A stretch of DNA of 64,000 nucleotides, taken from the NCBI RefSeq assembly GCF_022899935.1, contig NZ_JALJCJ010000003.1, positions 62,001 through 126,000 of the forward strand. Direction: 5' to 3'. Below, piece by piece: positions 27,577 through 35,781 of this stretch. The stretch is from Shinella curvata (GTDB lineage: Bacteria; Pseudomonadota; Alphaproteobacteria; Rhizobiales; Rhizobiaceae). The position numbers were made by a program, and so were the translations under genes. The notes beneath the pieces were generated by a model. It saw only the letters and a program-made list of their open reading frames with translations. It did not search any database and was not told the origin of the DNA. Position 1 is the stretch's first letter. Every line of letters starts with the position of its first letter.

Positions 27577-30500
27577 ATGACTTCAATCGTTACATCTCTT
27601 ACGATCAACCAGATCAAGTCGCTTTCGTCGACTGCGATCCAGAACCTCAACACGGCCGACATCGCGGCGCTGTCCAGCACGCAGATCAAGGCCCTGAGCT
27701 CGTCGCAGATCGCCGCTTTCGAGACGGACGACCTTGCCGCGTTCTCGTCCACCCAGCTCAGCGCCGTCACCGCCGCTGCCATCACCGGCCTCACCCTCTC
27801 GCAGATGGATGCCCTGAGCTCGACCAACATCGTCGGTCTGACCTCGGCCCAGATGAACGCGCTCAGCACGGCGCAGGTCGCCCAGCTGAACTCCGACCAG
27901 GTCGACGCCCTGACGTCGACGCAGATCGGCGCCCTCAGCGCTGCCGCACTCGGCGCCATGGCTTCCGACGAAATCGCGACCTTCTCCTCGGATGAAGTCG
28001 CCGCCATCTCCACCAAGGTCCTGGCGCAGCTCTCCACCGACGCAATCGCCAACTTCAACAGCGACCAGCTCGGCGCTCTCTCCTCCAAGCAGATCGCTTC
28101 GCTGACCACCGCACAGGTTGCCGTGCTCACGTCCGAGCAGGTCGATGGCCTGACCAGCAGCCAGGTTTCTGCCCTGACGGCCAAGCAGGTTGCCGCTCTG
28201 ACGACCGATGCGATCACCTCGCTCGACAGCGACCAGATCGCCGCCCTCTCCGCCAAGCAGGTTGCCGCTCTCACCACCGATCAGGTCGCGATCCTGGACA
28301 CCGACCAGGTCACCGCCCTCTCGAGCACGCAGATCGCTTCCCTCAGCGCCGCCGCTCTCGGCACGATGACCTCGGACGAGATCGCAACCTTCACGACGGA
28401 TGAAGTCGCCGCCATCACCACCAAGGTTCTGGCTGCTCTCTCCACCGACGCGATCGCCAACTTCGACAGCGCCCAGATCGGCGCCCTGACGAGCAAGCAG
28501 GTCGCTTCGCTCACGACGGCCCAGATCGGCGTTCTCTCCTCCGAGCAGATCGACGGCCTTACGACCTCCGGCGTGGCTGCCCTGACGGCCAAGCAGGTTG
28601 CCGCTCTGACGACCGATGCGATCACCTCGCTCGACAGCGACCAGATCGCCGCCCTCTCCGCCAAGCAGGTCGCGGCCCTCACCACCGCTCAGGTCGACAT
28701 CCTGAACTCGGATCAGGTGCAGGCTCTGACCTCGACCCAGATCGCCGGCCTCAGCGCCGCCGCTCTCAACCTGATGGAGTCGGACGAGATCGCGACCTTC
28801 ACCACGGACGAAGTCGCTGCCATCTCCACCAAGGTCCTGGCTGCTCTCTCCACCGCGACGATCGCCAACCTTGACAGCGACAAGATCGGCGCTCTCTCTT
28901 CCAAGCAACTCGCAGCCCTCACCACCGCCCAGGTGGCCGTGCTGACCTCCGACCAGCTTGACGGCCTCTCCAGCGCCAACATCACGGCTCTGACGGCCAA
29001 GCAGGTTGCAGTCCTCACGACGGAAGCCGTCGCATCGCTCGACAGCGACCAGGTCGCCGCTCTCTCGGCCAAGCAGGTTGCGGCTCTGACCACCGACCAG
29101 GCAGAAGCCCTCACCTCCGATCAGGTTCAGGCCCTGACGTCGACGCAGATCGCCGCCTTCGGCGCCGTTGCCCTCGACACGATGACCTCGGAGGAGATTG
29201 CAACCTTCTCGACGGATGAAGTCGCCGCCATCTCCACCAAGGTTCTGGCTGCCCTCTCCACCGCGACGATCGCCAACCTCGACAGCGACAAGATCGCAGC
29301 CCTCACCAGCAAGCAGGCCGCTGCCCTGACGACGGCACAGATCGCATCGCTTTCGTCTGACCAGGTCGATGGCCTGACCAGCGCCAACATTGCAGCCCTG
29401 ACGATCAAGCAGGTTGCGGCTCTGTCGACCGATGCCATCACCTCGCTCGACAGCGACCAGGTCGCGGCCCTCTCGGCCAAGCAGATCGCTGCCCTCACCA
29501 CCGACCAGGTTGCGACCCTCAACTCCGATCAGGTCCAGGCTCTGTCCTCGACCCAGATCGCAGCCCTCAGCGCCGCCGCCATGGACACGATGGCTTCGGA
29601 CGAGATCGCAACCTTTACTACGGACGAAGTTGCCGCCATCTCCACCAAGGTTCTGGCCGCTCTCTCCACCGCGACGATCGCCAACCTGGACAGCGACAAG
29701 ATCGCCGCCCTCTCGTCTAAGCAGATCGCTGCCCTGACGACGGCCCAGATCGCATCGCTGACCTCCGACCAGGTCGATGGTCTGACCAGCGACAACATCG
29801 TCGCCCTGACGGCCACGCAGATCGTGAAGCTGACGACCGATGCCATCGCATCGCTCGACAGCGACCAGATCGCCGCGCTGACGTCCAAGCAGGTTGCTTC
29901 GCTCACCACCGAACAGGTCGAAACCCTGACGTCGGATCAGGTCGAAGCACTCGACAGTGCCCAGATCGCAGCCCTCAGCGCGGCAGCGCTGGGTGTGATG
30001 GACTCCGACGAGATCGCCAAGTTCACCACGGATGAAGTCGCCGCCATCTCCACCAAGGTTCTGGCTGCACTTTCCACGGCTGCTCTGGGCAACTTCGGAA
30101 GTGATCAGATCGCCGCGCTCAGCACGGCTCAGGTCGCCGCTCTGACGACGGCTCAGGTCGCAAGCCTGATCTCCGACCAGCTCGACGGCCTGTCGACCGA
30201 CCAGGTCGTCGCCCTGACGGCCACCCAGGTCGCATCGCTCACCACCGACGCCGTCGCGTCGCTGGAAAGCACGCAGATCGAGGTCCTGACGTCCAAGCAG
30301 GTCGCATCGCTCACCACCGATCAGGTCAAGACCCTGAATTCGGATCAGGTGGCGGCGCTCACCAGCACGCAGATCGCAGCCCTCAGCGCCGCAGCGCTGG
30401 ACACCATGGACTCCGACGAGATCGGAACGTTCTCCTCGGATGAAGTCGCAGCCATCAGCACCAAGGTTCTGGCCGGCCTGTCGACCGACATCGTGTCCTT

Positions 30501-34623: not shown

Positions 34624-35781
34624 ATGACCGTGAAAGAAAAAATCCTCATCGTCGGCGCCGGGCTTTCCGGCGCCGTCATCGGCCGGGAACTCGCACAGGA
34701 AGGCTGCAAGGTCGAGATCATCGACGCGCGCAACCATATCGGCGGCAATTGCCACACGGTGCGCGACGAGGCGACCGGCGTGATGGTGCATGTCTACGGC
34801 CCACACATTTTCCATACCGACGATGCCGAGGTGTGGGACTATGTGAACGGCTTCACGACCTTCATGCCCTACAAGAACCGAGTGAAGACGACGAGCGGCG
34901 GCCAGGTCTTCTCGCTGCCCGTCAACCTGCACACGATCAACCAGTTCTTCGGCAAGACGTTCCGGCCCGACGAGGCCCGCGTCTTCCTCGAAGAACAGGC
35001 CGACAAGACGATCTCGGATCCTCAGACCTTCGAGGAACAGGCGCTGCGCTTCGTCGGAAACGATCTCTACGAGGCGTTCTTCAAGGGCTATACCCAGAAA
35101 CAGTGGGGCTGCTCGCCGACCGAACTTCCGGCGTCGATCCTCAAGCGCCTGCCCGTGCGCTTCAACTACGACGACAACTATTTCTTCCATAAATTCCAGG
35201 GCATGCCTGAAAACGGCTATACGGAAATGATCGAGGGCATTCTCGACCATCCCAACATCCACGTTTCGCTCGAGACGAGTTTCCGGCGGGACCAGGTCGC
35301 GGGCTACGCCCATGTCTTCTATTCGGGTCCGCTTGACGGCTATTTCGACTACGAACTCGGCCGGCTCGGTTATCGCACACTGGATTTCGAGCGTTTCACC
35401 TATGACGGCGACTATCAGGGCTGCGCGGTGATGAACTACGGCGACGTCGCCGTGCCCTATACGCGCATCACCGAACACAAGCACTTCTCGCCGTGGGAAG
35501 AGCACAAGGGATCCGTCTGCTACCGCGAATTTTCGCGCGCCTGCGGTCCTGAGGATATCCCGTATTATCCGATCCGCCTCGTCGAGGAAAAGGCGCAGCT
35601 GGCCGACTATGTCGGCCGCGCCGAACAGGAAAAGAGCGTTACCTTCGTCGGTCGCCTGGGTACATACCGCTACCTCGATATGGACGTGACCATCCGCGAA
35701 GCACTCGACACCGCAAGGCTTTATCTTGCCCGCAGAGACGAGGGGGCCGCCATGGCGGCCTTCCTGCATGCGCCGCTCTGA
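34624..35781 (+). CDS. glf: UDP-galactopyranose mutase Glf
   Basis: FAD enzyme (385 aa) interconverting UDP-galactopyranose and UDP-galactofuranose. Evidence: dinucleotide-binding [17 protein letters not shown] at residues 9-25, [26 protein letters not shown], the YTQKQWG active-site motif and the C-terminal [13 protein letters not shown]. Length and motifs are standard. It is 37 bp after the previous gene, same strand, making galactofuranose the likely sugar of this locus. It ends at a hairpin terminator shared with flagellin 2. Confidence 0.96.

Follow-up and report, generated by a model that had tools for sequence, protein, structure and literature searches.

The window analyzed here, a stretch of 64,000 nucleotides from contig C13 of a 6.07-Mb genome, carries genes for a Ser/Thr-rich repeat protein, a glycosyltransferase of family GT41, a DDD-motif protein and a UDP-galactopyranose mutase (Glf) between flagellin genes. 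This arrangement raises the question of which protein such a gene set modifies, and with which sugar. The original prediction was that the four genes form an O-glycosylation island decorating the repeat protein and/or the flagellins with a galactofuranose (Galf)-containing glycan. Based on our analysis, the locus is likely a module dedicated to O-glycosylating, in the cytoplasm, a fiber that is displayed on the surface or secreted, namely the repeat protein. An O-glycosylation module tying GT41 and Glf to the Ser/Thr-rich protein is thus what we retain of the prediction, while the four-gene unit and the flagellins as general target were not supported as stated.

Results

Every gene was found at the position and on the strand originally claimed. 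Four plus-strand genes encode the 1143-aa ALTTAQ octapeptide-repeat protein (27577–31008; PF20080, E 1.2e-228), a 683-aa TPR and GT41 glycosyltransferase of the OGT/SPINDLY type (31195–33246; PF13844, E 9.9e-70, plus TPR families), the DDD-motif protein (33300–34586) and Glf (34624–35781). They are enclosed by minus-strand genes with Flagellin_N/C matches at 25897–26898, where the probable start is an internal methionine (MTSILTN) near 26865, and at 35864–36829 and 37085–37969; these flagellins are context outside the conserved unit. A 1871-aa minus-strand ORF over 27583–33198 was interpreted as an antisense side effect of the repeat codons. Judged by the locus, the closest relatives are Shinella species (GT41 identity 95%).

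The repeat protein matched PF20080 with 738.9 bits (gathering cut-off 26.4) over 43 stretches and consists of one unbroken 8-residue frame of about 143 octads. Ser and Thr make up 26.2% of the protein and occupy octad positions 1 and 2 in 77% and 84% of cases, corresponding to about 230 regularly spaced Ser/Thr residues at these observed rates. The commonest residues elsewhere are Gln at position 4, Ile/Val at 5 and Leu at 8. A 136-aa super-repeat is superimposed (69% identity at that lag), and Cys and Trp are absent. Of 13,346 ORFs taken from the fetched loci, 97 passed a simple octad rule, compared with none of 13,346 shuffled ORFs, so the octad signal lies beyond chance. AlphaFold modeling of the N-terminal 280 residues, using an alignment of 41 N-termini, predicted a short helix for every octad (mean pLDDT 95.3). 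Since the best PDB fold matches, mesothelin and other helical repeats, had TM-scores below 0.4, we describe the fold only as a short-helix superhelix. No signal peptide was evident on inspection by eye. MTSI[IV]-type N-termini and hydrophobic C-termini of repeat proteins recur in relatives. The N-terminal MTSI common to repeat proteins and rhizobial flagellins was considered as an export signal and left as a coincidence, because both kinds of protein are Ser/Thr-rich and loci with type I secretion genes start differently.

Directly downstream of the repeat gene, a terminator scan revealed a strong hairpin of 12 pairs and a T-rich tail (31031–31060, plus strand), a probable terminator or attenuator. 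In the region overall, terminator-like sites showed no excess (5 found versus 5.8 in shuffles). In 34 of 51 loci tested, the folding of the 70 nt that follow the repeat gene was more stable than that of composition shuffles by at least 8 kcal/mol. No sigma-70-like site was found by promoter scan. The hairpin would probably hold the enzymes below the repeat protein, giving an abundant structural protein and less enzyme, and more substrate than enzyme would be expected of a substrate/modifier operon.

The GT41 enzyme carries N-terminal TPRs, matched the Glyco_transf_41 family PF13844 with 235.7 bits (cut-off 25) and is similar to human OGT (hOGT) and XcOGT. Equivalents of hOGT H558, K842, H901 and D925, which we take to be catalytic or donor-binding positions, were retained in 86 of 86 aligned GT41 rows. 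The position of hOGT C917, presumably near the N-acetyl group of the donor, is Tyr in all 86 rows; that of K898 is Asn or His, and H562 is likewise not kept. Tyr at C917 and Asn/His at K898 would fit a donor other than UDP-GlcNAc. Against the HMW1C/N-glucosyltransferase model NF049992 the enzyme scored 27.5 bits (cut-off 1000), which leaves it outside that subfamily. We infer that it is a protein-modifying O-glycosyltransferase of the repeat protein.

To define the conserved unit, the best 80 of 97 loci confirmed in a GT41 scan were analyzed; some of their contigs are short, and absences are therefore upper limits. Repeat ORFs with 10 or more octads were present in 75 of these 80 loci, always within 2.2 kb of GT41 and in 62 cases within 500 bp. 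Two further loci (L011 and L047) break off at the contig edge within a fragment of the repeat gene, raising the number of linked loci to 77 of the best 80. Three loci (L009, L012 and L013) have no linked repeat gene, and in all three genomes the repeat family is found elsewhere. Co-occurrence in relatives had been set beforehand as the refutation test of the original prediction, and for repeat protein and GT41 it was strong.

The same picture was obtained from a survey of 151 Rhizobiaceae genomes (GT41 at E<=1e-100, PF20080 at E<=1e-9, Glf at E<=1e-60). GT41 was detected in 15 genomes, spread over 10 of 99 genera, and PF20080 in 20, including those 15 (Fisher p 9e-17, a value that ignores kinship). 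In all 15, GT41 has a repeat match no more than 9 kb away on its contig. Counting against strict pairing from the repeat side, 5 of the 20 repeat-bearing genomes had no GT41 at E<=1e-100. Further, the window's own genome encodes a second repeat protein (L090), in whose surroundings, 20 kb of which were read, no GT41 was found. Because of these cases, the repeat family can presumably exist unglycosylated or be modified from afar.

At the level of the class (387 genomes), GT41 (E<=1e-80) was found in 34 genomes and PF20080 (E<=1e-8) in 7. Both genes occur in five genomes, namely our own and the four with the closest GT41s (43–48% identity). These four are among six PF20080 genomes other than our own, and GT41 and repeat gene are linked in each of them. 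PF20080 was not detected at E<=1e-8 in the remaining 29 genomes, whose GT41s are more distant, and this confines the repeat association to this GT41 clade.

Glf matched TIGR00031 with 315.4 bits (cut-off 303.75) and has 2bi7 as its best solved match (E 2.7e-180). A linked Glf is present in 60 of the best 80 of 97 GT41 loci, and none was seen within the fetched DNA of the other 20. In the family survey Glf was detected in 41 of 151 genomes. The 15 best matches belong to the 15 GT41 genomes, in each of which Glf adjoins GT41 and no further match reached E<=1e-60. The window's Glf is likewise the only one found in its genome at this threshold. The conserved unit is thus repeat protein plus GT41, with Glf added in Rhizobiaceae, and this module is conserved and mobile. 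By itself Glf is not diagnostic, since Glf proteins 60–80% identical are common on plasmids of genera lacking the system, such as Phaeobacter (124 records in all). GT41 and Glf distances were moderately correlated (r 0.63, 60 pairs, no control), and lacking a control this co-divergence carries little weight.

In distant relatives the donor gene is a different one. Five distant loci were considered: L091 and L093, both from one family, L095 from Niveispirillum cyanobacteriorum, L096 from the same genus and L100 from Pseudoroseomonas. UDP-glucuronate decarboxylase accompanies the module in four of the five; the remaining genome has it on a second contig (L092), next to another repeat gene. For the decarboxylases of L095 and L100, the match to human UXS1 (E 1e-124 to 1e-128) stood well clear of those to the next families. 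No Glf was found in the four module-bearing distant genomes at E<=1e-20, a search in which the query was the one that did match in the family survey. The Glf gene of the original prediction is confirmed, and the Galf that we infer from it is not a constant of the system, because distant relatives hold a UDP-xylose-forming enzyme in its place. The sugar would accordingly be of the Galf type here and of the xylose type elsewhere.

On plasmids of Niveispirillum and Pseudoroseomonas, the repeat protein is accompanied by two GT41-like genes and HlyB/HlyD as well as the decarboxylase. HlyB/HlyD-type genes were identified in L095, L096 and L100. PrtD/HlyD genes in the rhizobial locus L046 were the sole type I case by BLAST among the best 80 of 97 loci, and no type I secretion genes were found adjoining the module in the window. 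Based on these neighbors, the repeat protein is probably exported by a type I system.

The second enzyme probably starts at ATG 33300; its ORF opens with TTG at 33225, overlapping the GT41 end, and 21 of 22 aligned relatives start at the equivalent Met or nearby. A KCDDDIVY motif is invariant in all 22 relatives. Pfam detected only an inserted Methyltransf_FA domain, present in 22 of 22 members, with no glycosyltransferase family matched and no solved relative found by sequence. In the structure model (mean pLDDT 83.1) the insert resembles jelly-roll and galectin folds. Naming the protein by its fold was abandoned, as the listed PDB matches cover the lectin-like insert only. The whole-chain match, from a viral library, was a pithovirus protein named macrocin-O-methyltransferase (TM 0.53). 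The product is a putative second glycosyltransferase, GT-A-like by its model; the gene is as originally predicted, and the class name leans on the DDD motif and the predicted topology, since Pfam finds the insert alone. It is an optional part of the module, being encoded in 22 of the best 80 of 97 GT41 loci and, among the 15 family genomes with GT41, in 5; a four-gene unit is not supported as stated. A profile search detected no trace of it in the other 10 of the 15 surveyed genomes with linked GT41 and Glf. GT41 is consequently the sole conserved transferase of the locus left to use UDP-Galf. It may transfer Galf or xylose directly onto Ser/Thr of the octad repeat, with the donor set by the adjoining sugar-nucleotide gene, a possibility that we put forward tentatively.

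These data also bear on an alternative in which Glf and the DDD-motif enzyme serve lipopolysaccharide, capsule or exopolysaccharide and GT41 alone acts on protein, the whole being a shared surface-antigen locus. Glf usually feeds polysaccharides, and both the 20 loci without a linked Glf and the close Glf homologs on plasmids devoid of this GT41 would suit such a division of labor. On the other hand, the direct linkage of Glf to GT41 in all 15 surveyed GT41 genomes, where no second Glf was found, argues against it. The second enzyme, likewise, occurs exclusively beside GT41 in its 5 family genomes and on all three plasmid records having it. We regard separate tasks as rather improbable.

Rather improbable as well is that the locus is a flagellin glycosylation island, in which GT41, acting like FlmG, modifies the flanking flagellins and the repeat protein rides along or serves as a second substrate. 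Rhizobium leguminosarum flagellins stain as glycoproteins, according to PMC2936354, and FlmG of Caulobacter crescentus is described in PMC7591256 as a cytoplasmic O-glycosyltransferase with TPR and GT-B parts that modifies flagellins. In the window the module lies between flagellins, and 15 of the best 80 of 97 GT41 loci have a flagellin no more than 10 kb away. Flanking flagellins occur in a Shinella clade and, at separate points of the GT41 tree, with S. fusca (L021), Ectorhizobium (L029) and isolate AFS032198 (L048). Supported branches force at least 4 changes in flagellar placement (quick tree, SH-aLRT only). The rough binomial P of at least 4 such placements is 0.0002 to 0.03, given 20 to 80 independent placements and our own estimate of 1.5% for each. 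As at least 4 changes are needed, this neighborhood is not plain chance. On a Pseudorhizobium flavum plasmid, flgE and two flagellins are followed by the module.

Linkage to flagellin genes is not constant, however, and the counts weaken the flagellins as a general target, with the at least 4 placements on the tree counting the other way. Within the fetched DNA of 65 of the best 80 of 97 loci, some of them on short contigs, no flagellin was detected. Among the 15 family genomes a flagellin is immediately adjacent in 3, all of one genus. It lies 15, 31 and 72 kb away in three, the first two distances being from two genomes of another genus, megabases away on the same contig in 2 and on another contig in 7. 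This GT41 is missing from 136 of 151 family genomes, and its constant partner is the repeat protein rather than flagellin. All 11 module-bearing genomes tested carry flagellins, a result that offers no contrast (a twelfth entry, a plasmid, was not counted). The module is thus not a flagellin system in general. Finally, GT41 as a regulator of many cytoplasmic proteins, with the repeat protein as its scaffold or regulator, is very unlikely: OGT/SPINDLY-type enzymes are described elsewhere as broad cytoplasmic regulators, yet here the enzyme pairs strictly with a single family of giant Ser/Thr-rich repeat proteins and with a gene for donor synthesis, and its distribution is patchy (15 of 151 genomes).

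Discussion

For the dedicated module, the acceptor, the O-linkage, the sugar, the order of steps and the export route can be proposed from gene content. The TPR-GT41 would recognize the ALTTAQ octad-repeat protein and add a sugar to Ser/Thr at two of every eight residues, using UDP-galactofuranose supplied by Glf, or in distant relatives UDP-xylose supplied by UDP-glucuronate decarboxylase. Where present, the DDD-motif enzyme may extend or cap the glycan. Glycosylation in the cytoplasm would precede export of the decorated protein, probably by a type I system, the genes for which lie nearby in some relatives and would be at another site of the rhizobial genome. Outside the cell, the fiber may act in adhesion, as matrix or in masking.

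In the open-licence literature we found neither a paper on the PF20080 family nor a description of such a system. If our reading is correct, PF20080 proteins would be scaffolds of glycosylated fibers in plant- and soil-associated Alphaproteobacteria, and the enzymes an additional GT41 branch with a genetically defined natural substrate. Since the donor-making gene changes by lineage while enzyme and substrate stay, the module would also be a natural test bed for GT41 sugar choice and a possible source of enzymes that attach Galf or xylose to proteins. Because the module has come to lie between flagellin genes repeatedly, a flagellar role is open to direct testing.

With human OGT, XcOGT and plant SPINDLY the enzyme shares the TPR and GT41 architecture and the conserved catalytic positions. 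It differs from human OGT at the C917 and K898 positions, and its partner gene makes UDP-Galf (or UDP-Xyl) instead of UDP-GlcNAc or GDP-Fuc. Flagellin glycosylation islands, for example in Pseudomonas aeruginosa, place strain-variable glycan genes beside flagellin genes, whereas our module mostly lacks a nearby flagellin and has a Ser/Thr-rich partner of its own. Compared by architecture only, FlmG is likewise an alphaproteobacterial TPR and GT-B O-glycosyltransferase in the cytoplasm (PMC7591256). It acts on flagellins, whereas the window enzyme pairs with the ALTTAQ repeat family. HMW1C of Haemophilus and relatives is, as described in PMC3012730, a soluble GT41 dedicated to one large secreted adhesin, HMW1. 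That system is N-linked and its substrate leaves by two-partner secretion, in contrast to the TPR-bearing window enzyme with its low score against the N-glucosyltransferase model, its octad-repeat partner and the type I genes of some relatives. Gram-positive serine-rich repeat systems use other transferase families and rely on Sec-type export; the present module combines GT41 with Glf or UDP-glucuronate decarboxylase, and its export is probably of type I. Their likeness to it lies in a giant Ser/Thr-rich repeat protein that is glycosylated before export, there through the accessory Sec route, by linked glycosyltransferases, as described in PMC6973325. HMW1/HMW1C and these serine-rich repeat systems are nearest in logic, and the TPR-GT41, the lineage-specific donor gene and the scaffold set the module apart from both.

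Among Shinella species, the flagellin site was found to be occupied by differing versions of the module (loci L021, L008 and L010, among others), some of them inverted and others in which a diverged repeat gene is encoded by the opposite strand. In a quick GT41 tree, with SH-aLRT support only, the S. fusca enzyme (L021) sits on a different branch from other Shinella GT41s. The pattern looks as if cassettes had been exchanged at this site. The same tree places the GT41s of two MAGs titled Rhodobacteraceae and Phyllobacteriaceae (L005 and L007) within the Shinella clade, and these MAGs are probably misnamed bins.

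A strong terminator-like hairpin lies 3' of the repeat gene in the window (31031-31060), and strong folding was observed at the equivalent site in the majority of loci tested. The source genome additionally encodes a second ALTTAQ-repeat protein of 2254 aa (6501-13265 of locus L090, C11:1076001-1096000), which carries the same N-terminal motif as the window protein and a different C-terminal tail; no GT41 or Glf genes were found near it within this locus. Both the repeat proteins (window 27577) and Shinella flagellins (window 35864-37969) begin with MTSI at the N-terminus and continue into a segment rich in Ser and Thr, a resemblance that is possibly coincidental.

On a plasmid of Rhizobium sp. 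CCGE531 (L103, 14949-21301), a repeat-GT41-GT-glf module is adjoined by two curlin genes and csgH. A 22-kb span of a Rhizobium rhizoryzae plasmid (L105) holds three ALTTAQ-type ORFs together with one gene each for a GT41, a GT2 and a HAD phosphatase.
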